NCBI GenBank assembly: GCA_030634545.1 | Contig: DAOWAN010000007.1 | Location: 1 to 42,751 of the forward strand | Length of the DNA: 42,751 nucleotides | Reading direction: 5' to 3' | Source: Candidatus Nanohalarchaeota archaeon | Lineage (GTDB): Archaea; EX4484-52; B79-G9 | Shown here: positions 2 through 41,718 of the stretch, piece by piece | Position numbering within the stretch: position 1 is the first letter of the stretch | Layout: every line of letters starts with the position of its first letter | The notes under the pieces: model-generated | Seen by the model: the letters and a program-made list of their open reading frames with translations, nothing else | Told to the model about the DNA's origin: nothing | Database searches by the model: none | Program-made: the position numbers and the translations under genes

Positions 2-244
2 ACTTTTACAGATGATTCTGATCTGGATATTTTAGAGGTATATAATGGCAGGACAGATACAGTGGATGCAGTTAAGATGGCAGAGGCACTTACAGGGATA
101 AAGATACAGGTTTTCCAGTTGAGTGAAAAACAGTTTTACAGGGAAATCATTGAAAAAAAGGAGCATGTTGTTCAATCTGCGCTTAATACTGGTTTTCCTG
201 TGTTTAATCAGAAGTATTATTATGAGGTTGTTTATGGTGAATGA
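2..244 (+). CDS. Nucleotidyltransferase (MNT-like) C-terminal part, 5' truncated by window edge
   Basis: Frame 2 is open from the window start: TFTDDSDLDILEVYNGRTDTVDAVKMAEALTG...; SDLDILEV resembles the catalytic SDxDhxh motif of minimal nucleotidyltransferases. Confidence 0.6.
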   Translation, partial: TFTDDSDLDILEVYNGRTDTVDAVKMAEALTGIKIQVFQLSEKQFYREIIEKKEHVVQSALNTGFPVFNQKYYYEVVYGE

Positions 245-468: not shown

Positions 469-557
469 GCGCAACGCTAACTGTTATTGGCGCAATAATA
501 TCAAAAATGATAATTGTGTTCAAATAAAAGTTTTATTTTGGATTTTAATCGGGTTTT

Positions 558-609
558 ACTCCGGTTATTTTCCGAAAATAAGCTGGTTTGAGTCCTGTTG
601 TTTTCACTT
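558..609. repeat. 52-bp direct repeat copy 1 flanking the AAA ATPase ORF
   Basis: actccggttattttccgaaaataagctggtttgagt...ttttcactt matches 1993-2044 with about 6 differences in 52; contains inverted repeat TTATTTTC-C-GAAAATAA. Confidence 0.8.
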
Positions 610-649
610 CTTCATCCTCTTTAAGCGGAAGGCGTTTTCGCGCCCAATC
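604..649 (-). pseudogene. Duplicated 3'-terminal remnant of atpD
   Basis: 46 bp matching 2818-2863 (end of atpD) with about 5 differences; minus-strand translation GRENAFRLKRMKK* versus atpD EMERENVFRLKRMKK*. Confidence 0.8.
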
Positions 650-656
650 AGGCTCA

Positions 657-1952
657 TTATTCATGAATCAGGCAAGATAACCATGCCGGAACAAACTGAA
701 GTTCTACATTATCAACAACTTCAATTTTAAATAAATCCCTGGTAATTACAATCCCTCGTTTACATGCAAATTTATCTGAGAATTTCAACAGACCCTTCAA
801 ATCCTTTTTACAAATCTGGTTCCTGTATTTGACTTCCACAGGCAGTAGTTTTCCATTATCAATAATCGCATCAACTTCATGTTTTTCCTTGCTTCTCCAG
901 AAAAAGTTTTCAGCAAAGAGGGTCTCTACATATTGTCCTGCCAACTGTTCGACATCCAGAAGGTCTTTAGAATAATTTAAGACCGCAAAAGCAATAGATG
1001 GATGAATTACATATATCTTTTTGCTCTTTCTGATTTTTGTTGCAATACTTTTGGAATATGTTTCTGAAATTTTTATTAAAAATGATAGTTTCAGGTAGAG
1101 CAGGTAATTTGAAATCGTGGCTGTATCTACATTAAGCATACCTGACAGATTCGTGATTTCAAAAAGGTTTGAGCTTTCCTTGCATGCAAACCTGAATAAA
1201 TCATAGAGCGCATCCTTTTTTTTAATATCAAATATCTCAGGTATATCTTCAAGAATTATTTTTCTTAGAACCATCTCCTTGATATAATCCCTGATATATT
1301 CTTCATCATCCTCACCTGCAATTTCAGGAAACGCTCCTTTGTATATATATTCATTAAACATATTTTCGAAATATTCTTTTCGTGGAAGCATAGACTCATA
1401 ATTCTCTTTTAGAGTACCCTTTAGCACAACAGTATTCCCTCTTAATGCCAAAAATTCCCTGAAGTTCAATGGCGGTAAATAATATGTCATTAATCTTCCT
1501 GCAAGGCTCTCGTGACCCTTTCTTATTTGCAGCGACGCAGAGCCTGAGATTATAAACTTCATGCTGCCGGTGTCATAATATCTCTTTAATACCCCCTGCC
1601 AGTCAGGGATGTAATGTATCTCATCAAAAAAAAGGTATTTTCCCTTGAAGTTATTCAGAAAATAATCTATAACAAAAATCAGGACCTCTTTGTTTTGCAG
1701 GTCTTTTTCATCAAAAGAGAAATAGATACATGATTTTTGAGGCAGCTCTGAAATCAACTGTTTCATCAAGGTTGTCTTTCCGACCCTGCGCATACCTGTT
1801 AACGCAATGATCTGCTTTTTTCCAATATTTTTTTCGAGTTTTGTGTAGATATCTCTTTTGAAATCAGGAATATCTGCTTTTTTCCTATCCTTAGTCTCAT
1901 CCCATTGCGGGTTAAATGTCCGTATCAACCGAATTATATAGTCTTTGTCCAT
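657..1952 (-). CDS. ATP-binding protein, archaeal AAA_14/DUF4143-type ATPase
   Basis: Walker A ALTGMRRVGKTTLMKQLI, Walker B KYLFFDEIHYIPDW, C-terminal EVDAIIDNGKLLPVEVKYRN nuclease-fold-like motif typical of DUF4143 proteins. Confidence 0.85.
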   Translation of the reverse strand: MDKDYIIRLIRTFNPQWDETKDRKKADIPDFKRDIYTKLEKNIGKKQIIALTGMRRVGKTTLMKQLISELPQKSCIYFSFDEKDLQNKEVLIFVIDYFLNNFKGKYLFFDEIHYIPDWQGVLKRYYDTGSMKFIISGSASLQIRKGHESLAGRLMTYYLPPLNFREFLALRGNTVVLKGTLKENYESMLPRKEYFENMFNEYIYKGAFPEIAGEDDEEYIRDYIKEMVLRKIILEDIPEIFDIKKKDALYDLFRFACKESSNLFEITNLSGMLNVDTATISNYLLYLKLSFLIKISETYSKSIATKIRKSKKIYVIHPSIAFAVLNYSKDLLDVEQLAGQYVETLFAENFFWRSKEKHEVDAIIDNGKLLPVEVKYRNQICKKDLKGLLKFSDKFACKRGIVITRDLFKIEVVDNVELQFVPAWLSCLIHE

Positions 1953-1992
1953 AGTATTGTATTTATGGTGCTTTGGAATTTAAAAAGGTTTC

Positions 1993-2044
1993 ACTCCAGT
2001 TATTTTCCGAAAATAAGCGGGTTTGAGTCGCCTTATTTTCACTT
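1993..2044. repeat. 52-bp direct repeat copy 2 flanking the AAA ATPase ORF
   Basis: Matches 558-609 including the ttattttccgaaaataa core. Confidence 0.8.
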
Positions 2045-2191
2045 TTTTTATTGTTTTGAGCAAAAACACCAAATATCCGCCATATACTTTACGATTTTTC
2101 CATTATTTACCGAAAGAGATATAACTACTAACCCATCATAAATAACAACAATAAAATTAACTCCTAAGCCAAAAATGAGTGGCTTTTTAAG

Positions 2192-2788
2192 GTGACAAAT
2201 ATGACTATCAGAACAGGTGATGAACTCGAATATGACAGAACAGGAATAGACTTACTCTATTGTCTTTCGAAAAATTATTACGGACTTGGGTTTGGATTAG
2301 CAGCAGGACTTATAAAAGACATAAAAAAGCAGAAACATCTAAATTATGCTCTTGGTGAAGTAGAGATAAAGCTTGCTGAAGGACTAGAAATTGTAGTCTA
2401 TAATGATTGTCATGTTGATATTGAGAGGACATTTGAGGATGGCAATTATAGTACAGGAGAGTTAAATCCATTTTCATGGATAGACTATGAGAGAGAAAAT
2501 ATAAACAATAGACTGCCACCTGTTTTCTTTAAGGAGCATCTTCCAGATACAATATATACACTTGCACTAAAATGCCCTTCTCAGGTTAAAGAAATGGTAT
2601 CGCTTATGAAACCAAATGAGGTTGGAGATGTTCTCAGAGCAGCACAAACAAAATTAACAGAAAAGAAGGATACTCTCACAGCATATAATGAGAATAGTAC
2701 TGTCGCAAACCCCGAAGGTATAGGAGATGACGAAGTAAGGAGAGCGGTTTTAGCTGTTAATAGCGCACTAAATGAGAGAGAGAGTTAG
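2192..2788 (+). CDS. Hypothetical protein (198 aa; ATG alternative at 2201)
   Basis: Long ORF with ribosome-binding-like aaggtg upstream; family not recognised. Confidence 0.6.
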   Translation: MTNMTIRTGDELEYDRTGIDLLYCLSKNYYGLGFGLAAGLIKDIKKQKHLNYALGEVEIKLAEGLEIVVYNDCHVDIERTFEDGNYSTGELNPFSWIDYERENINNRLPPVFFKEHLPDTIYTLALKCPSQVKEMVSLMKPNEVGDVLRAAQTKLTEKKDTLTAYNENSTVANPEGIGDDEVRRAVLAVNSALNERES

Positions 2789-2817
2789 TGTTTTACTGAG
2801 TTTAGAAATCGACTCAT

Positions 2818-3432
2818 TCACTTTTTCATCCTCTTTAGGCGGAAGACGTTTTCGCGCTCCATCTCCTCTAAGCGCAGTCTTATAAAGGATGCCTGTGCTT
2901 TCATGCGCGGGATTACTGAGAACTCCAGGGCGTTTACCCGTCTTTTTGTCTTCTCAATCTCGTCTAGAAGTTTTAGTATTGTGGTCTCTACTTCTGCTGC
3001 AAGAACTACTTTGTCAACTACGTGCTCGTATGCATATGCTGCTTCATCTATTCTTGAGCTTGAGCCAATCAAGCCGTAGCCGCGCTCATGCATGTGTTTG
3101 ACAACATTTGTGGATGATATTTTCGGGACTACTACACCCATAACGTTTTTGCTTGCGACATCAATGCCGGGACACTCTTTCAAAGCCATAGCATAAGACT
3201 GCACACTAAGGGCGCCGTCAATGGACTCTGCGACATTGACGCAGCGGTCTGCTTTCACATACTCTGCTGTCAACTCTGAGCGTACACTTTTTGCTTTTTT
3301 GAGAGTATCAAAAAACTCCAGAATCAGCCCGTCTCTTTTCTTTTTTAGCAGGTTGTATCCTGCATCAGCTAATTTTATGCTCTTCTTGAGTTTCATCAAC
3401 TCTGACCGGGTTGGCTTAACATCCTGTGCCAT
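2818..3432 (-). CDS. atpD: A/V-type ATP synthase subunit D
   Basis: N-terminus PTRSELMKLKKSIKLADAGYNLLKKKRDGLILEF is diagnostic; operon position after atpB. Confidence 0.95.
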   Translation of the reverse strand: MAQDVKPTRSELMKLKKSIKLADAGYNLLKKKRDGLILEFFDTLKKAKSVRSELTAEYVKADRCVNVAESIDGALSVQSYAMALKECPGIDVASKNVMGVVVPKISSTNVVKHMHERGYGLIGSSSRIDEAAYAYEHVVDKVVLAAEVETTILKLLDEIEKTKRRVNALEFSVIPRMKAQASFIRLRLEEMERENVFRLKRMKK

Positions 3433-3512: not shown

Positions 3513-4886
3513 TTAGCTGCTTTTGTAGTATTTCTTCTTTATCTTTGGACTGACTCTTGTAAGTTCGTCTTCTGGTATTGAGGAGAGCAGATCCCATGAG
3601 ATATCAAGTGTCTTCTCGATGCTTCGGTCTTCTTTTTTGCCCTGCCTTACGAATCTGTCTTCGAATGCAGCAGCGAACTTCAAAAGCCTCTTATCGCGTG
3701 CTGAGAGAGCTTCTTCACCTACTATCGCTACAAGTCCTCTCAGATCTCTTCCTTCTGCATATCCTGCATACTGCTGGTCTGATACATTTTTGTGGTCTTC
3801 GCGTGTCTTGCCTTCGCCTATCCCGGAGTTCATCAGCCTTGAAAGCGATGGCAGTACATCTACTGGCGGGTAAACGTTGTTCCTGTGCAGTTCTCTTGAA
3901 AGCACAATCTGACCTTCTGTGATGTATCCTGTCAGATCAGGGATTGGGTGTGTAATGTCATCTCCTACCATTGTAAGAATCGGAATCTGGGTAATTGAGC
4001 CTTTTCTTCCCTGTATCATGCCTGCCCGCTCATAAATTGTGGCAAGGTCTGTATACATGTACCCAGGGTACCCACGTCTTCCGGGTACTTCTTCTCGCGC
4101 AGCACCTATTTCACGAAGGGATTCGCAGTAGTTGGTCATGTCTGTCAGGATAACTAGTACGTGCATGTTTTTCTCATATGCAAGATATTCTGCTGCTGTC
4201 AGCGCCATTTTCGGGGTAATCAATCTCTCTACAGCAGGGTCATCTGCAAGGTTCAGGAATACTACTGCTCTTTCAAGTGCGCCTGTCTGTTCAAAGTCTG
4301 AGATGAAATACTGAGCCTCTTCATTTGTGATTCCCATGGCTGCAAACACAACTGCAAAATCGCCTTTTTGTCCGACTACTTTTGCCTGCCTTGCAATCTG
4401 CAGGGCGATTTCATTGTGCGGAAGACCGGAACCTGAAAATATCGGCAGTTTCTGACCTCTTACAAGGGTATTCATAAGATCGATTGTGGATATGCCTGTC
4501 TGGATGAAATCAGCAGGGGGGCTGCGCGCATAGGGATTAATTGCTGCACCCATGATGTTCATCTTCATCTCAGGGACAATTTCAGGACCATCATCTATGG
4601 GTTTTCCTGCACCGGAAAGAATTCTTCCGAGCATGTCTGATGAAACCGGGAGTTCTATTGTCTTTCCAAGGAACTTTACTCTTGAATTTCTGTCAATGCC
4701 GCTTGTGCCTTCAAATATCTGGATAACTACAATGTCTTTAGAAGTATCAAGTACCTGCCCGCTTTTTGTGTCGCCGTTTGGCATTGTCACTTTTACGATT
4801 TCACCATAGCCTATGTCCTCTGTCTTTTCAACAAAGACAAGGGGTCCTGCAATTTTTGTTATTGTCTTGTATTCTTTAGCTGTCAT
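3513..4886 (-). CDS. atpB: A/V-type ATP synthase subunit B
   Basis: [10 protein letters not shown]...[19 protein letters not shown]... [25 protein letters not shown]; canonical subunit B. Confidence 0.97.
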
Positions 4887-4941: not shown

Positions 4942-5262
4942 CTATTCTGCTATTCCTGTAGCATAGACTGCTTCCTCTTTTACATGCTGAATATCGGGTT
5001 TCAGATTATTTTCAATTACCAAATCTACTTTTTTGTTAAATATTTTCTCCAGCAGGAATTTTAAATCCATGTAATCATCAAATGTAGATTTCTCAAACAC
5101 AACAAGGAAATCCATGTCGCTTTTCTTATGATGCGTTCCTTTTAGAAAAGAACCGAACAATCCCAGCTTTTTTACTTTATATCTTTTGATTTCACTCTTG
5201 TGCTTCTCAAGTGTATTTATAACACTATTCGGGGTCAATTCATGTTTATGTATTTCTCTCAT
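4942..5262 (-). CDS. Nucleotidyltransferase family protein (MNT domain)
   Basis: KVKKLGLFGSFLKGTHHKKSDMDFLVVFEKSTFDDYMDLKFLLEKIFNKKVDLV. Confidence 0.9.
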   Translation of the reverse strand: MREIHKHELTPNSVINTLEKHKSEIKRYKVKKLGLFGSFLKGTHHKKSDMDFLVVFEKSTFDDYMDLKFLLEKIFNKKVDLVIENNLKPDIQHVKEEAVYATGIAE

Positions 5263-5277
5263 TTATGCCACCAATAT

Positions 5278-5352
5278 CTATTTCACAGTGTACCTGTCCT
5301 CAAGCAGTTTCCATGCTTGCCGACAAAATACATATCTCTTCAAATTATTCAT
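5278..5352 (-). pseudogene. Remnant of an MNT nucleotidyltransferase N-terminus (24 codons)
   Basis: MNNLKRYVFCRQAWKLLEDRYTVK*; KLLEDRYTVK matches KLLEDKYKVK of the MNT at 8809-9120, with DNA-level similarity 5281-5310 versus 9034-9063. Confidence 0.6.
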
Positions 5353-5354
5353 CG

Positions 5355-6950
5355 TTATTCTATAATTTTCCAGTAACCGCCTTTGTCCGGACCAACTCTT
5401 TTAATAATGCCTTCTTCTTTTAGCTTCTTAATATTCCACTCAATTCCTCTTCTGCTTAAACCAGTTAATTCTTCTAATTCTTTTTGCGTAATATGAGGAT
5501 TTTCTTTCATTGCAGACAATGTTTTCTCCACAGTTTTCTCCACAGTTTTCTCCACAGTTTTCCGGGTAGTTCCAGTGCCCTTGTCATCCAATCCATTTTC
5601 TCCAATAATCTTCCAGTAACCGCCCCTGTCCGGACCTACTCTCTTAACTGCGCCCTTCTCTTTCAGGTTTTTAATATTCCACTCAATTCCTCTTCTGCTT
5701 AAACCAGTTAATTCTTCTAATTCTTTTTGCGTAATACGGGGATTTTCTTTCATTGCAGACAATGTTTTCTCCACAGTTTTCTCCACAGTTTCAGTGACTT
5801 TACCCTCTGAACCCTTCTCTGCAAGCTTCAGGTACTCCCTGCTCTGCTTAAAAGTTACATAAAAATAATTTTCATCATACTCAACTTCAGGAAAAGGCGC
5901 ATTTTCCTTTTTACACATCTCTTTTATCCTTTCAAATCCGGTTCCCATCCTTTCCCCGAAATGGATTCTTGAAAACAAATCAGCAATATGCTGGTTTCTT
6001 CGAAATACTGTTTTTCCAAGAACAAAATTCGCAGGCTCAAGCCAGTAATTATCAATTCTTATCCTGTCAGGAAGAAATTTCAGGATATTGTTGTGTCCGT
6101 GCTCAAAATAATATTTATGCATCACTGAATTAATTACAGCTTCTCTTATAGCATCAAATGGATACTCATAGATATTATCCCTACGCGGTTTTCCTGTAAA
6201 GCGATAAGCAACCTTAGAGTACAGTCTTACGAATTTCATCACTTCCTCAACAATTTCGAACAAACTGCCTTTAACTTCTTTCCTGTCTATGATTTCAACG
6301 CCGGCATCATCCTTAAACAAAGCTACAGTAAAAACAGACCATGGAACAAATCTCTGCGGCTCTTTGGAAAAGAACAACACTCCCGCATTATTAAAAACAA
6401 GTTTATTTTCGTGTTTTTCAACTACTCCTAAACTAATAAGTTGTTTTTCTGTATCTTCGCTTTCTGAAATTTCTGCAAGCTGCAGGAACCTCTTAAATCT
6501 GCTTTCATCAAAATCTTCAGGATAATTAAATCTTGTTTCTATGAATTCATCAAATCTTGCCTTTCCTTCTGATTTGAATAGTTCCATAATTTCATCTCTT
6601 GTTAACTTCTGGCTGTTCGCCCCGATGCGCTTGTAAAATCCGCCGGAGCATTCATAAGGCTTATCTTCACCCTCATGCACAGTTATTATGATCACATTTT
6701 GGAATTCTTCAAGAGAGATTTTAATCTTTGGCTCACAATTATTTGCTATATCCTGTATCTGTGACCTCAACCGATTTGTCATTTTAATTCCTTTTATCTT
6801 TCCATGGTCATCCAGACCCAGAAAAACTCTGCCGCCAGAGGAATTAGCAAGTGCAACTATCTCTTTATCCAGACCATTCATATTCTCCTTGAACTCTGTT
6901 TTGTAGCTCTCGCCTTCTTTCATGATGAGTTCCAGTTCTTTATTGTCCAT
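5355..6950 (-). CDS. AlbA_2 (Schlafen-like) ATP-binding domain protein with tandem C-terminal winged-helix repeats
   Basis: ESYKTEFKENMNGLDKEIVALANSSGGRVFLGLDDHGKIKG (AlbA_2), RecG-like ATP-binding C-terminal segment, then two copies of a ~60-aa HTH (ITQKELEELTGLSRRGIEWNIKNLKE). Confidence 0.88.
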   Translation of the reverse strand: MDNKELELIMKEGESYKTEFKENMNGLDKEIVALANSSGGRVFLGLDDHGKIKGIKMTNRLRSQIQDIANNCEPKIKISLEEFQNVIIITVHEGEDKPYECSGGFYKRIGANSQKLTRDEIMELFKSEGKARFDEFIETRFNYPEDFDESRFKRFLQLAEISESEDTEKQLISLGVVEKHENKLVFNNAGVLFFSKEPQRFVPWSVFTVALFKDDAGVEIIDRKEVKGSLFEIVEEVMKFVRLYSKVAYRFTGKPRRDNIYEYPFDAIREAVINSVMHKYYFEHGHNNILKFLPDRIRIDNYWLEPANFVLGKTVFRRNQHIADLFSRIHFGERMGTGFERIKEMCKKENAPFPEVEYDENYFYVTFKQSREYLKLAEKGSEGKVTETVEKTVEKTLSAMKENPRITQKELEELTGLSRRGIEWNIKNLKEKGAVKRVGPDRGGYWKIIGENGLDDKGTGTTRKTVEKTVEKTVEKTLSAMKENPHITQKELEELTGLSRRGIEWNIKKLKEEGIIKRVGPDKGGYWKIIE

Positions 6951-6997
6951 TTCATTACACCGTTAGTATTATTCTAATTCAAATTAGACATTATTTT

Positions 6998-7819
6998 CTA
7001 TTTTTCAATATTTACAGGATAACATTTCTTAAATAGTTCTTCTAGTGTCTTTGTAGTTTCATCATAGTACTTATTTAAATCTTTTTCATCAAAAACAATA
7101 TCCATATTATGCGCACCTATCCCGCCACGCTCTCGTATTTTTGATAATTTCGATAAGTAATCCGTAACATTACGAGACAAATGAAACGTATCGGGATTCT
7201 TTCCGTTGTATGTTATGAGATTTTTAATAAGTGTATCAATCGAAAAATACATATTACTTTTAGGGTCTCTTATCTCGTTATCAATTTTCCTTCTTCTGAA
7301 TAAATCAATGATTATGTTTTCAAGCATTTTACGACAAAGAACAAGACAGCCGTTAAATGCCCCATTAACGTAGCAGATATTTATTTCATTGCACAATGTG
7401 GAATATCTAGGTTCTGTATCAAATATTTCTTGTTTCAAAAATGTATCTTTCACATCATAATTATTTTTTACAACGCCCTCTTCAATCTTATAATTCTGAC
7501 TTCTCAAATTACAAATTAGGTGATGAATGCGATCTTTCCACAGTATGTTATGTTTATCATATCCATATTTACCCTCATCTACTTTCTTTTTAATATCTGG
7601 ATTGGTTAAAAAATAATTAATTAGTTTTAAAAAAATAGAGTTCTCTGGATTTAGATTATGAATTTTCTCAAAAATCTCTGTGAGGTATTTTTCTTCATTA
7701 GATTCATTTGAACTTTCTGTTATGCCTAATTTATTGAGTTCTTCTTTCAAGTTATTTATACTATAGTTACACTTCGACAACATTATGTCCATTAAAACTG
7801 AAATAATTATTTTATCCAT
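6998..7819 (-). CDS. Hypothetical protein with DUF4145-like segment
   Basis: CYVNGAFNGCLVLCRKMLENIIIDLFRRRKID resembles the DUF4145/HEPN-like conserved core; weak by eye. Confidence 0.5.
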   Translation of the reverse strand: MDKIIISVLMDIMLSKCNYSINNLKEELNKLGITESSNESNEEKYLTEIFEKIHNLNPENSIFLKLINYFLTNPDIKKKVDEGKYGYDKHNILWKDRIHHLICNLRSQNYKIEEGVVKNNYDVKDTFLKQEIFDTEPRYSTLCNEINICYVNGAFNGCLVLCRKMLENIIIDLFRRRKIDNEIRDPKSNMYFSIDTLIKNLITYNGKNPDTFHLSRNVTDYLSKLSKIRERGGIGAHNMDIVFDEKDLNKYYDETTKTLEELFKKCYPVNIEK

Positions 7820-7825
7820 ATATCT

Positions 7826-8752
7826 TCACGCCCACAATTTATAACACGAATCTATTCCACATATATATCCTGCTTTACAATCTAAATCAGATTTACACTC
7901 AATACATTTCTGATTATCAAAGTATCCATCACTTCTATCACAATATGGTTTAGAATTAGGACAATCTTTATCTTCCCAACATTCTATAGCATCGCCATCT
8001 TTACTACATACGTACGTATGCTGTTCCAAACTGTAAATGCATCGTGGTTTATCTGAAGGACAATCTGAACTAATTCTGCACTGCATACATTCGAAACCAG
8101 AGCATATGGGTTTATTTGAAGGGCAATGAGAATCTTCGAAACATTCAAAACAAATATGAGATAAAGTGGACTCACAGTGTGGTTTTTGTGAATCCTTACA
8201 ATCTGAGTTACTTATACATTCTACACATTCAAAATTCTTATTACATCTTAGTCTGTTAGATTCGTACTCAGAATTACTTAATTCTCCCGATACAACTCCA
8301 GTCGGCACTGCAACAATCTCTTGTCTGTTAGATTCGCAATCATAATCACTTAAACAACCTTCTGTGAAATAAGAAACAAAACCATCAATACGCCACCCTT
8401 CTGATGTGAAAACCAAAGGTATGGGTGGCATCTTTGATTCTAAAATACCGCCAGATAGAGTATAATATGCATATGCTTCATTGTCTCCTTGCATCACAAC
8501 CTTATCAAATATAAAATAGCTGTTCTCTAATGGAGAACCTTTACCACTAATATATCTTACAAAATTCTCCTTGCTTCTCTGTTTCTTTAACTCTGGTGTA
8601 AATAATTCATAAAGTGTTTCATAGTTTGAATTTTGTAAATCAATAGCAAATCCCTGTGCTACTGCCTCTGCATTTCCTTTTGTATTCTGAGCGCAACCAC
8701 TAACTAAAACAATTCCAACTATTACAAAAAATATTATTCTATTCTTTATCAT
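7826..8752 (-). CDS. Cysteine-rich repeat lipoprotein
   Basis: Signal peptide with lipobox (IIFFVIVGIVLVSGCAQN) then repeated CxxCxxDxDCPxxKPxC units; start chosen at MIKNRIIFF. Confidence 0.7.
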   Translation of the reverse strand: MIKNRIIFFVIVGIVLVSGCAQNTKGNAEAVAQGFAIDLQNSNYETLYELFTPELKKQRSKENFVRYISGKGSPLENSYFIFDKVVMQGDNEAYAYYTLSGGILESKMPPIPLVFTSEGWRIDGFVSYFTEGCLSDYDCESNRQEIVAVPTGVVSGELSNSEYESNRLRCNKNFECVECISNSDCKDSQKPHCESTLSHICFECFEDSHCPSNKPICSGFECMQCRISSDCPSDKPRCIYSLEQHTYVCSKDGDAIECWEDKDCPNSKPYCDRSDGYFDNQKCIECKSDLDCKAGYICGIDSCYKLWA

Positions 8753-8808
8753 TTTATCATTCCATTTTATTACATTCATGTCTCAAGCATCTTTTTAATC
8801 TGCTTCTT

Positions 8809-9120
8809 TCAATGTTGGCAGTTCACTACCTCATGTGATATTTGTTTTTTGAGTTCCTTTCTGATGACTGCTTTTCTGACCAGATCTACTTTTTTCCCTA
8901 GAATCTTTTCCATATAGCGCTCAAGATTCAAAAACTCAAAAAGGTCAGGCACGTTATGAAATTCCACAAGGATGTCTATATCACTACCTGTTTTCTGATC
9001 GCCTCTTGCAAAAGACCCGAATACACCGAGAGTTTTTACTTTGTACTTGTCCTCGAGCAGTTTTCTATGCTCACGGATTACATGCAGGGCATCTTTAACA
9101 TTTTCTACCATTTGCACCAC
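8809..9120 (-). CDS. Nucleotidyltransferase family protein (MNT domain)
   Basis: KYKVKTLGVFGSFARGDQKTGSDIDILVEFHNVPDLFEFLNLERYMEKILGKKVDLVRKAVI. Confidence 0.93.
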   Translation of the reverse strand: MVQMVENVKDALHVIREHRKLLEDKYKVKTLGVFGSFARGDQKTGSDIDILVEFHNVPDLFEFLNLERYMEKILGKKVDLVRKAVIRKELKKQISHEVVNCQH

Positions 9121-9141: not shown

Positions 9142-10890
9142 TCACTCCAACTTGTCAAATTCATTCTCCATTTCCTTTGTGGCAGATGCAAGTACTTTTT
9201 CATAATCTTTGTCGAACTTTGCATCTCCTATCTTGTTCTTTGATTTCACTTCAAGTATTGTTGCTGCTCTTATACCGTTGTCAAGCGCAGCATATGAAAG
9301 GTCTGCATAATGCAAAATCGTCTTCAAAAGCAAATCTGTCTTTTTCAGTTCGCAATACATATCAACGTCATGGAACGCATTCTGCTGAAGGAAAAACTCG
9401 CGTATAAGCCGTGCAACCTCTAATGTTATCTGCTCTTTTTCAGGAAGTGCGTCACTTCCCACAAGCTGAACTATCTCCTGGAGTTTCTCTTCTTCCTGCA
9501 ATATCTTCATGCAGCGCTCAACCTGCGATCTCCAGTCTGAGGTAACATTTGCTGCAAACCAACTGTCAAGGGTATCAAGATAAAGGCTGTATGATGTCAG
9601 CCAGTTGATTGACGGGAAATGCCTTCTTTGCGCAAGCTTTGCATCCAGCGCCCAGAAGCATTTGGTGACACGCAGGGTGTTTTGTGTTACCGGCTCTGAG
9701 AAGTCTCCGCCGGGAGGGGATACTGCACCGATTATTGTGATTGAGCCTTCCTTGTCTGTCCCGAATGGGATTACACAGCCTGCTCTTTCATAAAATTCTG
9801 CAAGCTTTGTTGAAAGATAAGCAGGATAACCTTCTTCGCCTGGCATTTCCTCAAGTCTTGATGAAATCTCCCGCATAGCCTCAGCCCATCTTGAGGTACT
9901 GTCAGCCATCAACGCAACAGCATAACCCATATCCCTGTAATATTCTGCAATCGTGGCGCCAGTATAGATAGATGCTTCCCTTGCAGCCACAGGCATGTTG
10001 GATGTGTTTGCTATGAGTACGGTTCTCTCCATCAGTGTCCTTCCGGTCTTTGGATCTTTCAGGTGCGGGAATTCTGTAAGTACTTCTGTCATCTCATTGC
10101 CGCGCTCACCGCATCCGATATAAACTACAATATCTGCATCAGACCATTTTGCAAGACTCTGCTGGGTAACTGTCTTTCCTGCGCCAAACGGTCCGGGAAT
10201 AGCAGCGACACCGCCTTTTGCAAGCGGGAACAGGGCATCAAAAATCCTCTGTCCTGTTGTCAGCGGAACTGTAGGTATAAGTTTCCTTCTTGATTTTCTT
10301 GAATATCTTACTGGCCACTTGTGCGCAAGCTTAAGTACGGTACCATCGTCAAGCTTTCCTATTTCATCTGTGACAGTATAACTTCCGCTCTTTATCTCGG
10401 CAATTTTGCCTGATACATTCGGCGGTACTAGAATTGTATGCAAAACACTTGATGTTTCCTGTACAGTTCCGACAATTGTGCCTCCTATGACCTTATCGCC
10501 TTTTTTTATTGTGGCTTTAAAATCCCATTTCTTTTTCTGGTCTAGACCGGGGGCGTCAACGCCTCTTTCAATGAAATCACCCATCTTGTCTTTTAAGACC
10601 GGGAGCGGTCTCTGTATCCCGTCATAGATTGACTTGATAAGACCGGGTCCAAGCTCAACAGATAGCGGCATACCTGTGTTGATGACAGGCTCACCTGGCT
10701 TGATACTTGTAGTATCTTCATAAACCTGGATAACTGTCTTCTCACCATCAATCTGGATGACCTCACCCATAAGCTTTTCATTGCCCACGCGCACGACATC
10801 ATACATGCGCGCAGTTATATCTTTCGCAACAACTACAGGACCTGCAATCCTGTAGATAAAACCTTTCTCTGTATTTTTAGCAACTGCCAT
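9142..10890 (-). CDS. atpA: A/V-type ATP synthase subunit A
   Basis: P-loop [39 protein letters not shown]; canonical catalytic subunit. Start taken at [10 protein letters not shown]. Confidence 0.97.
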
Positions 10891-10917
10891 ATCTATCACC
10901 TTGTAAATCATCTGTTT

Positions 10918-28311: not shown

Positions 28312-29259
28312 TCAGGCTGTTTTCAGTGCATCTTCAAGCTGCTTTTTGCTTATTGGTTTTTTGAGGTAATCTGCTGCGCCTAAATCAATGCACTGTTTCT
28401 TTGTTTCCTCTTCATAAACGGAGGTTTCCATGATAACAATAGTTTTCGGTTTTATTTCCTTTATCTTTTTCAGCGCACCTATCCCATCAAGATTCGGCAT
28501 CTTTATGTCCAAAAGAACAATTGCCGGTTCTTCACTTTTTACTTTTGCAACTGCCTGCTCACCATCAGCAGCCTCGAGAATATCATATTTACTGGTATCA
28601 ATATAGCTTTTGATTGTGCCTCGCATCATGGTTGAATCATCAACTATGAGTACTTTCTTTTTGGCACCAGCATATTTTGCGGTGTCTTTGGTCTTGCCTG
28701 CATCTCCTGTTTCAGCATTCCCGGACTGCTGTTCTGTGACATGAGTTATATGCTCTATGTCTTTTGATTCTATTACTTTTCCAAGGTCAACAAGTATCAA
28801 TAGGCGTTTGTCAAGTACGCCGACACCCTGTATGTAATCTGCGTTTATTTTCTGTGTGATTGTCGAGGGCGCAGGCTCGATTTTATCGCCTGTGATTCTC
28901 AATACTTCGTTACAGTTGTCAACTACCATACCTATAGTATTGCCTTCTATTTCAGTTACGAGTACGCGTGTGTTCTTGTCTTTTTCTTTTACTTCAAGAC
29001 CAACCTTCTTTGCAAGGTCAATCACTACTATAATCTTCCCACGCAAATTGATCACACCAAGAATATAGTCATCTGTTCCAGGTATTACTGTAACATCTTC
29101 CATCTTGATTATTTCGCGCACATCATTTATGTCTACGCCGAATTCTTCTGCGCCAATCATGAATACAACCAGCTGGCGCTCAAAAAACTGCTTTTCTGTG
29201 TCCATCTGTGCATCATTTTGTTTTTCTGACATTATCTTCACCTGTCTTGCTATTACCAT
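28312..29259 (-). CDS. CheV-like chemotaxis protein: CheW domain fused to receiver domain
   Basis: FMIGAEEFGVDINDVREIIKM...VINLRGKIIVVIDLAKK (CheW) then KVLIVDDSTMMRGTIKSYI...VLLDIKMPNLDG...YLKKPISKKQLE (REC). Confidence 0.92.
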   Translation of the reverse strand: MVIARQVKIMSEKQNDAQMDTEKQFFERQLVVFMIGAEEFGVDINDVREIIKMEDVTVIPGTDDYILGVINLRGKIIVVIDLAKKVGLEVKEKDKNTRVLVTEIEGNTIGMVVDNCNEVLRITGDKIEPAPSTITQKINADYIQGVGVLDKRLLILVDLGKVIESKDIEHITHVTEQQSGNAETGDAGKTKDTAKYAGAKKKVLIVDDSTMMRGTIKSYIDTSKYDILEAADGEQAVAKVKSEEPAIVLLDIKMPNLDGIGALKKIKEIKPKTIVIMETSVYEEETKKQCIDLGAADYLKKPISKKQLEDALKTA

Positions 29260-29343
29260 CTTTTTAAAATTCCTGTTTTTTTACATGCTGCTATGCTAAT
29301 GCTACGATGTGTGTTTATGGGTTCAAAAACATGAACTCTTGTT

Positions 29344-30012
29344 TTACTTATTGTGGATAATTCTTTTGCCGGTACTTTTTTGTTTTCTTTTTTTCTTTGC
29401 CTCTTTCTTCTCTACAATTGCCGGCTTTTTTTTCTTTATCTTGCTTTTTTGCGAAGGCGCCTGATTCTTTTGTATTTTTGGCGCCTCTTTATCTCCATCA
29501 CATAGGATGCTGGCGCTTTTCTTTTCCACGCTCTTTATGTGCCCGAGGTCTTTTTCATCTAAAACTTTTGAGATGTCAAGCAGTATCAGGAGGCGCTCGC
29601 CAATAATCCCTACACCGTCAATATATGCGCTTTTGAACTTTTGGGTTATTATTTCAGGTGCAGGCTCGATTTTATTACCTGTTATTCTCAATACCTCGCT
29701 GCAGCTGTCTACTACCATACCCAGGATATTGTTCTCTATATCCACTATGAGTACGCGGGTGTTCTTGTCTGTTTCCCGGGCTGCAATTCCCAGTTTCTTT
29801 GCAAGATCAATCACGACCACAATTTTTCCGCGCAGGTTGATTATGCCACGGATATAATCTTCGGTTCCAGGCATTGCTGTGACGTCCTCCATCCGGATTA
29901 TTTCGCGCACATCATTGATCTCTATGCCGAATTCTTCTTTCTCTATTTTGAATACAACCAGCTGACGCTCACATAACTGCTTTTCTGTGTTCTGTTTTAT
30001 TTGGTCATCCAT
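29344..30012 (-). CDS. cheW: Chemotaxis adaptor CheW with Lys-rich C-terminal tail
   Basis: VVFKIEKEEFGIEINDVREIIRMEDVTAMPGTEDYIRGIINLRGKIVVVIDLAKKLG. Confidence 0.92.
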   Translation of the reverse strand: MDDQIKQNTEKQLCERQLVVFKIEKEEFGIEINDVREIIRMEDVTAMPGTEDYIRGIINLRGKIVVVIDLAKKLGIAARETDKNTRVLIVDIENNILGMVVDSCSEVLRITGNKIEPAPEIITQKFKSAYIDGVGIIGERLLILLDISKVLDEKDLGHIKSVEKKSASILCDGDKEAPKIQKNQAPSQKSKIKKKKPAIVEKKEAKKKRKQKSTGKRIIHNK

Positions 30013-30183
30013 ATTTGTTACCTTTATTTGTTAAACGTTAACGCGCGAATTCCAGTTAAATTTGTGTTTTACAATACACACGCAGTTGACTGTATTGACG
30101 CGTCATGACAGTGTCTTTGAGGTTACCGGACCCATACCAGATTTTGCCGGGTGCTGCTCAAGCAGGGAAATCCAAAAGATTCA

Positions 30184-32574
30184 CTATTCTTTTTTATCTG
30201 TTTTTTCATCTTTTGGTTTAGCAGGTTCAGACCCATTCCCGGTGGAAGGAGCCGGTTTACTCTTTTGGGTTGTCTGGATATGTTTTTTATATTCTTTCTC
30301 CAGTTTCTCTTCATGCATATTTTTTTGGTTCTTTTGAGAAACTACTTTAGTCATATCACCTGTATCTGTTACGGAGGACGAGTCATCCAGCCTGAAAGTG
30401 GATACAATCTGCTTCAGTTCTTCAGCACCTTTGGCAAGTTCCTGTGCAGCACCGCTTACCTGTGTCATTGAGGCAGTTGTCTCTTCCATAGATGCTGAGA
30501 CTTCTTCAGATGATGCAGCGCTCTCCTCAGCAATTGAGCTTACTTCAGTAGCTGAACCTGAAACTTTTTCAACACCTGCCTCTGACTGCTGTGCCGCAGC
30601 ACTCAACTCCTGTGCCTGTCCGGCAATCTCTTTCACTATCTGCCCGATTTCTTCAAGAGATGTTACTGCTTCTGTGATTACAGATGAGCCGCTATCCACC
30701 GCTTTCTTAGTCTCATCCATCTGCGTGACAGAATTTTTGGTCTCATCCTGCACTGCTGTTATCAAATCAGCAATCTGTGTGGTTGCTTTTTGCGACTCTT
30801 CTGCAAGTTTTCTTACTTCATCTGCAACAACAGCGAAACCTCTTCCTGCCTCGCCTGCTCTTGCTGCCTCAATTGCTGCATTCAGCGCAAGGAGATTGGT
30901 CTGCTCTGAGATGTTATTGATTACATCTATAATCTTTCCTATCTCCTGGCTCTTTGAATCAAGGACTCCCACATTAGTTGCAGTCTTGTCTGCCGTATCT
31001 GATATCTGCTTCATCGCATCTCCTGCTCTCCTGCCCGCGTCAAGACCCTTGTCTGATGATTTTTGTGCAGTTGATGCGTTTTCCGCAGTCTTCTGCGAGT
31101 TGTCTGCCACAAGCTTTGTAGCCATGCCGACTTCTTCAATCGCTTTCTTAGTCTCCCCACTCAGTCTTGAAAGGTCCTGACCTCCTTTCGCAACTTCCTG
31201 TATTGTGGCACTTACCTGCTCAGTTGACGCGTTCACCTCTTGTGCTGATGCAGACAATTCCTCAGCAGAGGATGCTGCAACATTTGCGTTTTTTGCAATC
31301 TGGCTTACTGTTATTCTTAACCCGTCAATCATCTTCTGGATTGCATCTGCTGCCACTTTAAGGTCCCCTCTTGCTTCGACATTTACGTCTTCCCTTAAAT
31401 CGCCGTCTGCCACTTTTGCAGAAATGCCGACAATCGCTTTCATTGGTGTTGCAATATTCTCAAGCATGTTATTAACAGCTACAGCTGTTTGACCAACTTC
31501 ATCTTTTCCTGAAACAGTCATTCTCTTGTCAAGTTCTACTGTATCTGCCAGATCAGTGGTTTCTTTTACCATCCTGCTAAGCGGTTTTGTAATTAGTCCT
31601 GCAACAAACAATGCAATTATTACACTCAAAATCGCAGCCCCGAGCGTAAATGCAAGTATCATCATATTTGCCGATGCCTGAGCATCAAGCATCTCTTGCT
31701 TCTGGTCAGCGCGAAGCTCGTTTGCCACGTTTTCAAATTCCCTTGCAGCTGTAACCATCGCTTCCTCATCCATTAGCTGATCCTTGTAAAGAAAAACATA
31801 TTCATCAAATGCCTCTTTATAATCTTCTATAGCATCTTTAATAGCATCCATCTGGTCAAGGTTCTGCTGCTGTTTCATTTTTGTTCTTGTAGAAGCAACT
31901 TGTGCAAGCGTATCTTCAACAATCTCATCAATCTCATCAGCGTACTGGTCATCGTTCCTCAACATGTAGTTCTTTTCTGCTATTCTTAGATCAGAGATAT
32001 ATTTGATGATTCTGTTGGCATCATCTGCTTTACCCACTCTTTCATGAAGATTATCATGTTCTACCTTTGCTGCAAACTCATTTTCCATCTCTGCTTTCTG
32101 GTCTGCTCTCAGGGCATTGCACTCACTTTCTGCGTTATGTGCAGCTTCAACCATCAGGTTATTTTGCGCTTCCATTTCCTGGTGCATTTTTTCATACTCT
32201 GCAACCCCTGCTTCATATTTTTCAAGTTCTCCGGCAAGTTCGTCCATCATGGCAATATTGTCAACACTATTGAACTTCGCCTTTGTCTCTGTGATTTGTG
32301 AATGCACCCCTTCAACAATCGTATTTAACTTCTGGATGGCATGTTCTGTATCACTCCCATGCAGATTATATCCTCTAAGCATGAAATTCTTTTCCTGCTG
32401 CCTTGCTCCCAGCACCTCTTTCACAAGCCGGTTTGCATCATCTGCCTTGTCAACCCTGTCAACGACAGTATGCATGCTGCTGTAGCCGACATAACCGATA
32501 ATTGCTGCGATTAGAACAACAATTGTAAATCCTGCAATAATTTTTGTCTTTACTTTTACATCATTTAATTTCAT
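30184..32574 (-). CDS. Methyl-accepting chemotaxis protein with long helical extracytoplasmic sensor (HBM-like)
   Basis: [38 protein letters not shown] hairpin; HAMP; N-terminal repeated [25 protein letters not shown] / [25 protein letters not shown]. Confidence 0.95.
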
Positions 32575-32826
32575 TTTAAACCGCCTCGCAAATCATACAT
32601 CCCATTGTCACTTTTCAGTGCACATGATTGTTATATTAATATCACTTTGTAACTATTTTTTACAGCATATATACTTTATGGTTGAAATAGTACCCATTTC
32701 ATTGTCCTAAACGGAGAAAAATGAGCAAAATGCATACTCTATCAAAAAAACAGTTGATATTAAACCGGAGAAATCAGGGCGATGAATAATGTATTTCGCA
32801 TCAGAAAAAAGTGAGATGGTGAGAAT

Positions 32827-33414
32827 ATGGAGTCTTTGAATATACCTAAAAATAATGGCACTAATAAGAAATGCCAGATAAAATCAGATGACAGTATAAG
32901 GTTAAAAGTGTTAAGTGCACTGTTTGATAAAAACGGTCTGAAACCAAACATTGAATATATTTCAAAAAAGACCGGTCTGACGAGGCGGACAATATATAAT
33001 AGCCTTGAGTTTCTAAATGAAAATGGAGTGATCCGGGAGTATCATCCTTTTCTTGATGTGTCAAAGCTTGGTTTCCTGCTTTCTTCCATAAGCCTGCTGC
33101 AGGTTGATATGACACGGACCAAAGTGCTCAATGAATTTAAAAAGAGACTCGCTAATGACCCTAATGTGTATCAGGTATCTGATATTACAGGTCTGGATAC
33201 ATACAATGTTGTCATTATGGAAGTGTACGGGTCTGTTGAAGAATACACTTCATCAATGAAAAAGAAGTATTATACAAAAATCCCGGGGTTTTCTGAACTG
33301 GTTACAAAGCGCATTATTGTTTATAATTCTTTAGATGATGGAAGCGTATATAAACAGGCTCATATTCCAAAACAGGTAATAGATATCCTTAATGAGCGGC
33401 AGAGATCGTATTAG
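32827..33414 (+). CDS. Winged-helix / Lrp-like transcriptional regulator
   Basis: KVLSALFDKNGLKPNIEYISKKTGLTRRTIYNSLEFLNENGVIREYHPFLDVSKLGF. Confidence 0.75.
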   Translation: MESLNIPKNNGTNKKCQIKSDDSIRLKVLSALFDKNGLKPNIEYISKKTGLTRRTIYNSLEFLNENGVIREYHPFLDVSKLGFLLSSISLLQVDMTRTKVLNEFKKRLANDPNVYQVSDITGLDTYNVVIMEVYGSVEEYTSSMKKKYYTKIPGFSELVTKRIIVYNSLDDGSVYKQAHIPKQVIDILNERQRSY

Positions 33415-33685
33415 TAAGGTACTCCAAATCCTAGTTCTTAAGAGGATTAATACTGCAACAACAAAACCAAAGTCTTATGATTTTAAACAAATAGACAATT
33501 CACAATATTTGTATTTCACATCTTGTAACTTCTCTTGTTTTTTTTTGATATTGTGATATATTATGATCTAATAGCATGTCACTAAGGTGCGACAAAACTA
33601 GATAAGCCTAGTATTACAAGTATACTCAAGGCATGAAATAAATGAGCAAAAACCACCCAAAACCATGTTGCATTGATGTATATGG

Positions 33686-33717
33686 GAAGGCACTCTACTC
33701 AATTAATTAGTGCCTTC
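33686..33717. promoter_or_regulatory. 9-bp perfect inverted repeat just upstream of the HTH gene pair
   Basis: GAAGGCACT (33686-33694) - 14 nt - AGTGCCTTC (33709-33717), 8 nt before ATG 33726. Confidence 0.55.
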
Positions 33718-33725
33718 ACTATATA

Positions 33726-34493
33726 ATGATGATGAAACCAGACAATTGGTTACGATTTACTGAAAAGGAAAAACGGGTGTTTCGAAAGATTATAAAATAT
33801 CCGCACCAGAATGATACAGAGTTGTCTAAAAAGATCGGCATTAACAGGACAACAATTACTGCTATCAGAAACAAATTATATAAGAGGAATTTTTATTCCA
33901 AGATAAGAATCCCTAAATTATGCCTTGCTGAATGCGAGATATTCAATGTCAGAAACTTCAGACTAAATCCATTGGGCATTTCATATAAAGAAAAAAAAGA
34001 GATAAATGAGTTGTTTGAATCACCTGAGATGATATTCGGGATTTTGTCAGAAGACAAAATTACAGGTATATTCCTGTCAAAAAATTATACAGAACTTTAC
34101 AAAATAAATGCATTGAACAAGCTAAGCGCGCAGTCGGATATATCAGAGAAGATATGCAGTGCTTATTTTCCCATAAAATTAAGCAAAATACCTGTTTTTT
34201 TTAATTACACATCATTATTTGAGCCACCACCCAAATCAAGTGATGAACAGATCAGGGATGACATACAACTACAAAAAATTGAGTATCATCCCACTGGCGT
34301 TCAAAGCTTTCAAATATTGCATCTTCGAAATTACTATGCAATTTTAAGCATGCATCAAAGCCATATGATAATACCTGACTTTGACTGGATTCTAATCGGA
34401 TCCACGCTTATAGGAGTATTGGACACACTTGAGAAGATACATCACTGCGATGAGACAAAATATTTAAGTATACTCTACAAATACCAACCATGA
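33726..34493 (+). CDS. HTH regulator, paralogue A
   Basis: RFTEKEKRVFRKIIKYPHQNDTELSKKIGINRTTITAIRNKLYKRNFYSKIRIPKLCL. Confidence 0.7.
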   Translation: MMMKPDNWLRFTEKEKRVFRKIIKYPHQNDTELSKKIGINRTTITAIRNKLYKRNFYSKIRIPKLCLAECEIFNVRNFRLNPLGISYKEKKEINELFESPEMIFGILSEDKITGIFLSKNYTELYKINALNKLSAQSDISEKICSAYFPIKLSKIPVFFNYTSLFEPPPKSSDEQIRDDIQLQKIEYHPTGVQSFQILHLRNYYAILSMHQSHMIIPDFDWILIGSTLIGVLDTLEKIHHCDETKYLSILYKYQP

Positions 34494-35569
34494 CCACTGC
34501 GGAACCGGTCCAATTCACAGAAAAAGAACAAAAAGTATTTGAAGGTATCATAAAATACCCTCACATGAACGATACAGCACTATCAACAAAAATCAATGTC
34601 AACCGGACAACAATTACATCCATCAGAAATAAAATGCAATCTGCAAACCTTTATTCTCGTATAAAGATCCCGAGATTATGCCTTGAAAAAAGCGAGATAC
34701 TAACGATAATTTGTTTCAGGCTAAACCTTCTTGAAATCACAGATGCAAAAACAAAAGACATCAACTCGCTTTTTGAAACACCCCAGATGATATATGGCAT
34801 TGCATCAGAAAATATGATATTTGCAGTATTTTTAACAGAAAGCTACACTGAACTATACAATATCGAACAGATAAACACTCTGATTGACGCAAAATACATA
34901 TATGAAACAACACAATACAACTATCCGCTACATTCATGTACTATCCCGGTATTTTTCAACTATACTTCACTCTTTGAAAAAAACAATCCACTTACCAAAA
35001 ACATTCCATTCATTGAAAAAATCAAGCGTACTAATGAAAAAGAGAATCCTGTGCAAAGGCGACATGCACCATTAAAAGTCACACCAACAGAAAAAGTAAT
35101 ATTATATGCACTCACAAAATACCCTACGATGACTGACAATCAGGTATCAGAATTCATTAACGCGCACCGCTCAAGAATAACCCAGGTCCGCAATAAACTA
35201 TTAAAAACAGATGCAATCAGCAGTATCAACATCCCAGATGTAAATAAACTTGGCTGCACAGAAACAATGTTCACATATATCAAATTCACTCCTGAAAAAA
35301 AAACTGAAAAAATTAAAGCAATTATTGAGGCAGCGCAAAAGCATCTTAAAACAATTATCATAATATATACTCAAAAAGAAGCCGCAATCATCTCATTATC
35401 CAAAAACCAAAATGAATCTGAAAAAGAACACGCTCAATTCACAGGATACTTAAGGATTCATAAACTACCTGCGAAAACAATAACTCATTTTTCCTGTACA
35501 ACCGCGAATTCTAAGATAAAACAACTCAACTTTGTATCACTGTTAAGAAATATGCTGTGTTATGATTGA
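34490..35569 (+). CDS. HTH regulator, paralogue B with a second HTH
   Basis: QFTEKEQKVFEGIIKYPHMNDTALSTKINVNRTTITSIRNKMQ and second copy VTPTEKVILYALTKYPTMTDNQVSEFINAHRSRITQVRNKLLK; start overlaps the stop of paralogue A (ATGA). Confidence 0.7.
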   Translation: MTTAEPVQFTEKEQKVFEGIIKYPHMNDTALSTKINVNRTTITSIRNKMQSANLYSRIKIPRLCLEKSEILTIICFRLNLLEITDAKTKDINSLFETPQMIYGIASENMIFAVFLTESYTELYNIEQINTLIDAKYIYETTQYNYPLHSCTIPVFFNYTSLFEKNNPLTKNIPFIEKIKRTNEKENPVQRRHAPLKVTPTEKVILYALTKYPTMTDNQVSEFINAHRSRITQVRNKLLKTDAISSINIPDVNKLGCTETMFTYIKFTPEKKTEKIKAIIEAAQKHLKTIIIIYTQKEAAIISLSKNQNESEKEHAQFTGYLRIHKLPAKTITHFSCTTANSKIKQLNFVSLLRNMLCYD

Positions 35570-35755
35570 GTAATATCAAATAAATCTCTTTTCTACTGAT
35601 TTAATTTAAATGACATAGAAGTAATTGTATTCTTGTCTGTTTGTATGAATCCACAGTATAAACCTTAACAATACAATCATTCGAATATACAAAATATTAT
35701 ATATTACCGCATGACATAAAGTATATGTTGACAACACAGCATATGGATGCAGTAC

Positions 35756-35800
35756 TAAAAAAATCATGAAAATTGGGGTTCAATTGGAATATTTTCAAGC
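35756..35800. repeat. Dispersed G-rich-loop hairpin repeat, site 2
   Basis: taaaaaaatcatGAAAATtggggttcaattggaatATTTTCaagc. Confidence 0.6.
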
Positions 35801-35993
35801 TTTTTGAGATGATTTTAAGGATATTGCAAAGACGGAAGTACATAAGAGTTATGTCTTTGACTGCACTTAAAATTCAGATTTGGAACCATCAGAAAGATGC
35901 ATTTTTTACAGTGATTTTATGTGCATCCAAAAAGAAGAGATATATATACTGGAGTGTACCCAAATATTCATTATCAAAACAAAAGGTGGTATT

Positions 35994-36347
35994 ATGGTAA
36001 AAGTCCTGATAGTAGATGATTCGTCCCTGATGAGAACCGTATTGAGAAACTTCATAAAAAAAGCAGGTCATGAACCTGTCGGCGAAGTTGCTAATGGAAA
36101 AGAAGCAATAGAAAAATATAAATCATTAAAACCGGATGTCATATTTCTTGATATAATCATGCCTGAAATGGATGGCATTGAAGCATTAGAAGAAATCAGG
36201 AAAATCGATAAGTTCGCAAAAGTTATTATGTGCTCGTCTGTTCTTGACAACAAGACTGTTGAGAAAGCCAAAGGATTAGGTGCAATTGAATATATCATGA
36301 AACCATTTCATGAAAAGGATATTGAAGATGCACTTGGCAAAATATGA
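35994..36347 (+). CDS. cheY: Chemotaxis response regulator CheY
   Basis: MVKVLIVDDSSLMRTVLRNFI...VIFLDIIMPEMDGIEAL...YIMKPF. Confidence 0.93.
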   Translation: MVKVLIVDDSSLMRTVLRNFIKKAGHEPVGEVANGKEAIEKYKSLKPDVIFLDIIMPEMDGIEALEEIRKIDKFAKVIMCSSVLDNKTVEKAKGLGAIEYIMKPFHEKDIEDALGKI

Positions 36348-36409
36348 TGTGAGTCGTGATTATAAACTCAAATTTACTTAACCAATTGAAAATTATACGT
36401 GGTGATAGA

Positions 36410-36772
36410 ATGATAAAAAATGTAATGCTCGTGGATGATTCTGCATTCATGAGAACCATAATTAAAAATGTCCTGGTGAAAAACGGATACTCTATTGTAG
36501 GTGAGGCAGAAAACGGTAAAATAGCTGTGGACCTGTATTCTAAACTTAAGCCGGATGTTGTCTTCATGGATGTTGTCATGCCTGAAATGAATGGTATAGA
36601 AAGTGTAAAGAATATCAAAGCAAATGATCCAAATGCAAAAATCATCATGTGCAGTTCATCTGGTCAGCAGGCGGTTGTAATGGAAGCGATAAATGCAGGC
36701 GCACGCGGATTCATCACAAAGCCATTCCAGGAAGCGAAAATTCTTGACGAGTTATCCCGCGCAGAGACATAA
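36410..36772 (+). CDS. cheY: Second CheY-type response regulator
   Basis: MIKNVMLVDDSAFMRTIIKNVLV...VVFMDVVMPEMNG...FITKPFQEAK. Confidence 0.92.
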   Translation: MIKNVMLVDDSAFMRTIIKNVLVKNGYSIVGEAENGKIAVDLYSKLKPDVVFMDVVMPEMNGIESVKNIKANDPNAKIIMCSSSGQQAVVMEAINAGARGFITKPFQEAKILDELSRAET

Positions 36773-36805
36773 GCACTCAGTTTGTGTATGCAAAGAGGTG
36801 AAGAA

Positions 36806-37861: not shown

Positions 37862-37881
37862 GACAAACCAAGTGATTAAAA

Positions 37882-39891: not shown

Positions 39892-39921
39892 TTCCGCTAC
39901 ATAATGAGAGAGGAGTTAAAA

Positions 39922-41120: not shown

Positions 41121-41190
41121 TGTAATAACGTATGCTTACACAACACACATACGGATTGGAATGCAGTAATAACTTAGGACAGAATAGAGA

Positions 41191-41706: not shown

Positions 41707-41718
41707 TAGATATTTGAG

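Follow-up and report, generated by a model that had tools for sequence, protein, structure and literature searches.

How did the 3' end of atpD, a gene for a subunit of the A-type ATP synthase, come to stand twice in one archaeal contig, on either side of a candidate defence gene? The contig, from a Candidatus Nanohalarchaeota archaeon (DAOWAN010000007.1), is 42,751 nt long and is called the window below, this term meaning the whole stretch that was analysed. Its nearest named relative is another Candidatus Nanohalarchaeota MAG (G004, identical with L059; JAUVEK010000001). A preliminary description of the DNA had proposed that the segment between the two gene ends was integrated at atpD. Little is understood of how single defence genes spread and accumulate without integrases or transposases, above all in small archaea that depend on a host. 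A duplicated end of a core gene marks an acquisition event in the sequence, so that such events can be located, given an orientation and placed in a time order; empty sites make the process directly testable.

The explanation that we favour, and consider moderately probable, is that an accessory candidate defence gene was stacked behind atpD by integrase-free recombination for which the conserved 3' end of this core gene served as anchor. The pattern at other essential genes of related archaea suggests that single defence genes are stacked there on core-gene ends without a dedicated integrase.

The duplicated 3' end of atpD

The near-copy of the last ~46 bp of atpD, reported earlier at 604-649 with its stop codon, was recovered by a repeat search of the window as a 47-nt direct repeat of 89% identity (603-649 and 2817-2863). 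Comparison of the atpD 3' end with its own downstream region by blastn gave 46 nt at 89.1% (E 2.6e-13). The copy lies on the same strand as atpD, includes the stop codon and translates as IGRENAFRLKRMKK before the stop, against MERENVFRLKRMKK in atpD itself. Chance similarity is ruled out by the blastn E-value together with ORF-end controls: among 1091 ORF ends from the same archaeal loci, few had a downstream copy of themselves, and most of the longest and strongest copies belonged to atpD. The preliminary description had also suggested looking for further copies in the genome; a search of all 2.18 Mb with a 116-nt stretch gave no other significant match, which rules out a dispersed genomic repeat as the source. 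The same genome carries a second, distant atpD paralogue (32%; G000:C65:6894-7487), also present in several relatives.

Table 1. Features around the duplicated atpD 3' end, in window coordinates
Feature	Position	Strand	Evidence or remark
Nucleotidyltransferase-like fragment at the contig edge, beyond copy A	2..244	+	weak Polbeta match, E 0.066; position
Repeat copy A, putative orphan second AAA_14 promoter/operator with palindrome at 565-581, directly behind the remnant	537..612	-	84% to copy B
Decayed second copy (remnant) of the atpD 3' end, 89%	603..649	-	repeat search, blastn, codon-position differences 1/2/2
AAA_14/DUF4143 ATPase, PADLOC candidate defence gene PDC-S01	657..1952	-	Pfam; PADLOC PDC-S01 E 2.6e-57
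Repeat copy B, putative AAA_14 promoter/operator region with palindrome TTATTTTCCGAAAATAA at 2000-2016	1972..2047	-	conserved upstream of the G015 and G028 AAA_14 genes
TTCACTTTTT, left copy of the 10-bp repeat	2038..2047		sequence, spliced alignment
Gene without assigned function, convergent with atpD	2192..2788	+	no Pfam match; 30% identity to G004 neighbour
TTCACTTTTT, right copy, atpD stop codon region	2817..2826		sequence
Functional atpD 3' end	2817..2863	-	repeat comparison
atpD, A-type ATP synthase subunit D, 204 aa, target/anchor gene	2818..3432	-	Pfam ATP-synt_D E 5e-56; 94% identical to G004

A composite repeat around the AAA_14 gene

A second direct repeat, absent from the preliminary description, flanks the AAA_14 gene: copies A (537-612) and B (1972-2047) are 84% identical over 76 nt, and copy A abuts the atpD-end copy. 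The stretch CTTATTTTCSGAAAATAA...TTTTTAAATT upstream of AAA_14 is common to copy B and to the related genes of G015 and G028. Since these two genes do not lie beside atpD, copy B is read as the AAA_14 promoter/operator and copy A as its orphan second copy. The idea that the repeat is a native tail or terminator of atpD was dropped, because AAA_14 genes that lie far from atpD have the same conserved region in front of them.

The two repeats are connected. The 10-bp direct repeat TTCACTTTTT bounds the segment 2048-2826, and when this segment is spliced out both repeats align as one ungapped 113-nt repeat of 86% identity, with the caveat that the overlap linking them is only ~10-12 nt long and lies in A-rich sequence. 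The composite consists of the atpD end plus the AAA_14 promoter, and brackets the AAA_14 gene. A cargo unit of 650-2817, as delimited in the preliminary description, does not survive this comparison: the repeat on the AAA_14 side includes that gene's own promoter, and gene 2192-2788 has a relative in place in G004. As this distant relative (30%) is also convergent and at the same position, the gene may have stood there as a separate or older neighbour instead of having been inserted late. On the other side, the contig begins 536 bases beyond copy A, and the fragment at its edge is possibly further accessory cargo.

The AAA_14 promoter inside the repeat also fits another origin, and so counts against our explanation: the atpD end, the AAA_14 promoter and AAA_14 might have been duplicated in tandem once, locally, in this lineage, and the second AAA_14 body then lost, so that neither import nor integration would be needed for the duplicated end. 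We judge this quite unlikely on evidence from other loci given below, and one AAA_14 body would, in addition, have to be lost exactly. The exact match of the 113-nt repeat to atpD end plus AAA_14 promoter is nevertheless what it predicts, and at L248 in G002 the AAA_14 promoter is repeated together with N-terminal codons.

The AAA_14/DUF4143 gene and its relatives

In the 431-aa product of 657-1952 the AAA_14 and DUF4143 domains both exceed their Pfam cut-offs, and a PD-(D/E)XK-type nuclease domain is probable. From its sequence, the gene is a candidate anti-virus gene. The PDC-S01 class, in which an ATPase is fused to a PD-(D/E)XK nuclease, is common in archaea and is reported to rank fourth by frequency among the defences of prokaryotes (PMC12988326). 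A search by sequence found no solved structure of a relative.

The G015 and G028 relatives, which belong to another family, are 72-73% identical to the window protein, whereas the atpD products of that family are only ~50-54% identical to that of the window; the AAA_14 gene has therefore probably moved horizontally. G015 and G028 share the AAA_14 unit at 90%; the similarity begins exactly at the promoter and ends exactly at the stop codon, and the surroundings differ. In G028 (L190, G028:C27, 4905-6565) AAA_14 adjoins an apparent cas2 gene. In G015 (L189, G015:C39, 1363-2714) the same unit is followed by only ~68 nt of the start of the cas2-like gene, in a leuA-like neighbourhood. Most AAA_14 genes examined have a palindrome of ~8-10 bp just upstream, each with a different sequence; this gene-specific inverted repeat, just 5' of most DUF4143 starts (L147-L188, L199-L207), looks like an autoregulatory operator.

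Copies of atpD ends in other archaea

Among 101 archaeal atpD loci, downstream copies of the gene's own 3' end were found in the window, G015, G020, G021, a Thermoplasmata locus (L114) and a Methanosarcina locus (L131). The copy in G015 measures 140 nt (93.6% identity) and lies 1.5 kb away, with RelA/SpoT-like cargo. G020 has amidohydrolase cargo and an eroded copy, weak at the nucleotide level; the sequence on the far side of this copy is similar to the corresponding flank in G015. G021 contains two extra tandem copies, likewise weak at the nucleotide level; there, as in L114 and L131, no coding cargo separates the copies. In L131 (Methanosarcina sp. STD2_179) the new atpD end resembles M. 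spelaei-type sequences. Immediately behind it come an older 3' end with a frameshift and then the native tail known from other Methanosarcina. The joint carries short microhomology.

Repeats around accessory genes

Direct repeats were surveyed in the 600 nt on each side of genes (E<=1e-8). They flank 21/81 AAA_14 ORFs and 6/978 others, a few tandem paralogues included. Tandem paralogous AAA_14 arrays (L253, L209) yield false repeats and were left out of the main counts: within the taxonomic order of the window and with tandem cases removed, 16/74 AAA_14 genes, 4/24 Schlafen-like genes and 7/451 others are flanked, and several of these seven are accessory cargo themselves. AAA_14 is the most strongly enriched class (Fisher p 6e-10 against the others), in a sample that includes the window, whose genes are not phylogenetically independent and whose AAA_14 loci were gathered partly by similarity to the window.

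For about half of the bracketed AAA_14 genes, the repeat includes the 3' end of the neighbouring gene on the outer side of the cargo, such as aspS (L243), leuS (L167), an acyltransferase-like gene (L261) and others, the names being read from translated ends. Several bracketing repeats have no clear gene end. The same bracketing surrounds Schlafen-like, RelA/SpoT-like, Zn-finger and ATPase_2 cargo, a result that weakens the idea of a mobility peculiar to AAA_14. Among the Thermococcus DUF4143 genes, 0/28 are bracketed by repeats, so that bracketing as a universal DUF4143 property is ruled out. This zero, and the low overall share of AAA_14 genes with bracketing repeats (about 22%), also weigh against our own explanation.

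Enrichment of this class would be expected if the ATPase-nuclease drove its own insertion as a self-moving single gene, cutting near gene ends or at the operator-like palindrome, with repair duplicating the flank. The fusion of an ATPase to a nuclease (PMC12988326) and the exact promoter-to-stop unit of G015 and G028 would suit such a gene, but the other kinds of bracketed cargo, the Thermococcus loci and the widely variable repeat length speak against it, and we consider it very improbable.

Empty sites and stacks

Queries of joined flanks, confirmed by alignment, revealed empty, contiguous single-copy sites at aspS in G031 and G032, and at the L222 gene in G029. The aspS site of G027 holds a different cargo gene and a 35-nt copy of the aspS end. 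Empty sites, for which the preliminary description had suggested looking at atpD, were thus found at sibling loci; for the junction at atpD in the window, no empty version was found among close relatives with the same atpD locus, all of which are fragmented MAGs.

Insertions can also accumulate. One gene in G016 is followed by three displaced copies of its own 3' end (224, 107 and 182 nt), with different cargo between them that includes AAA_14. This locus (L365, G016:C19, 2575-7110) is an insertion stack in time order. Local tandem duplication does not explain why the aspS and L222 sites are empty in some genomes and filled with new cargo in others, or why one site holds different cargo.

Recombinases and crossover points

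Direct repeats are present at both ends of the cargo in the window (46-47 nt, 89%, or 113 nt, 86%, without 2048-2826). As stated in the preliminary description, no integrase is encoded between the copies, and no integrase or recombinase was found elsewhere on the contig or in the cargo intervals read at other loci. Tyrosine recombinases do occur elsewhere in these genomes, the PF00589 matches of the window's genome being on other contigs. Such an enzyme, since lost or acting in trans, might have inserted small non-autonomous elements at core-gene 3' ends, each element carrying a replacement end and the duplicated end being the att site. The order of replacement end, cargo and displaced end indeed matches that of integrase elements in thaumarchaeal protein-coding genes (PMC6563490), and the aspS remnants of G013 and G027 share a nearly identical crossover, 35-38 nt before the stop. 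This last agreement is an exception: remnants at atpD differ in length between events (46, 140 and ~80-90 nt; ~46-140 nt overall), as do those within the single stack of G016, and the targets are diverse. Moreover, exact-pattern searches of IMG/VR viral contigs returned neither the atpD-end pattern nor the AAA_14 operator pattern, the former result counting against such elements. We regard this alternative as rather unlikely.

Because an integrase is absent and crossover points vary within one gene, classical att-site integration, as had been proposed for atpD, is not supported. What stands of the proposal is that acquired genes are bounded by a duplicated end, that atpD is a recurrent place (window, G015, G020, G021) and that empty sites exist at comparable sibling places; atpD is one of several targets.

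Origin of the gene ends and proposed course of events

The differences between gene-end copies, pooled over events hand-picked from cases with an identifiable reading frame (G021 giving two comparisons), number 22/12/56 at codon positions one to three, with 56 of 90 at third positions (p 2e-8). As these differences are mostly third-position, they point to ends that, in several events, had diverged in separate lineages while still part of functional genes, and were joined only afterwards. Local tandem duplication does not account for this bias at other loci. Neither the window (1/2/2) nor G015 (3/2/4) has it. In the window the atpD end and its remnant differ in a drift-like manner, as in a local duplication that decayed, which is a further point for that alternative and against our own.

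Recombination anchored by homology, with a second, non-homologous joint, is favoured by the absence of an integrase, the variable crossovers and the pooled third-position bias. For the window, we infer that the ends were imported rather than duplicated locally, and that events took the following course. Incoming DNA, consisting of a gene end and a downstream accessory gene, would recombine with the resident gene end. The incoming end would then complete the resident gene, with the cargo after it. The second, distal joint would fall inside the resident 3' end and leave the old end beyond the cargo as a remnant, and repeated rounds would build stacks. As the unit of atpD end and promoter is repeated, AAA_14 with its own promoter would have come to lie directly behind an atpD end at least twice; the distal AAA_14 body would have been lost, and the 0.78-kb piece with the convergent gene now sits between atpD and the AAA_14 promoter. 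A bolder proposal is that single-gene defence candidates of DPANN-type archaea, PDC-S01 above all, spread as integrase-free 'gene-end cassettes' that carry a core-gene 3' fragment, re-complete the gene and stack, with the PDC-S01 ATPase-nuclease promoting the step. This we regard as a distant conjecture.

Other features of the window

The atp operon is split between atpB (3513-4886) and atpA (9142-10911) by accessory genes (4942-9120): two nucleotidyltransferases, a Schlafen AlbA_2 protein and two genes without assigned function. A nucleotidyltransferase stretch (8820-9098) also occurs in G004, with 87% nucleotide identity. The Schlafen-like gene contains a 194-nt in-frame duplication of its winged-helix 3' end (5355-5548 and 5598-5791, 90%). 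Further along, at 28312-42552, translations indicate a large chemotaxis-like cluster in which CheW-, CheB-, CheA-, CheC-, CheD- and CheR-like ORFs are accompanied by a methyl-accepting protein; the named relative of this genome, as given above, is a Nanohalarchaeota MAG.

Comparison with known systems

Bracketing by gene ends is the new aspect with respect to PDC-S01, to which the AAA_14/DUF4143 gene of the window is a PADLOC match. The text of the archaeal survey mentions neither integration sites nor flanking sequences for PDC-S01 (PMC12988326), and no account of gene-end bracketing of this family was found in the literature covered, which excluded subscription papers.

Integrated elements of thaumarchaea (PMC6563490) resemble the loci described here in their insertion at gene 3' ends, their replacement end and displaced copy, and their tandem insertions. 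In contrast to those elements, the present loci have no integrase, only ~1-2 cargo genes and no constant att length. ATP synthase does not occur in the text of that study.

A close parallel in construction is found in the arrays of T6SS effector and orphan immunity genes of V. cholerae, for which homology-facilitated illegitimate recombination has been proposed (PMC5361080); orphan 3' ends of Rhs genes are cited there. These arrays combine a conserved anchor, an illegitimate second joint, a displaced 3' part downstream and growth by repetition, without an integrase. The window and its sibling loci likewise have one homologous anchor, cargo and a displaced old 3' end, with serial stacking in G016. 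Unlike in V. cholerae, it is ordinary core genes (atpD, aspS, leuS) that serve as anchors in these archaea; what is displaced is a short gene end without function (~30-220 nt), and single genes, either candidate defence genes or other accessory ones, make up the cargo.
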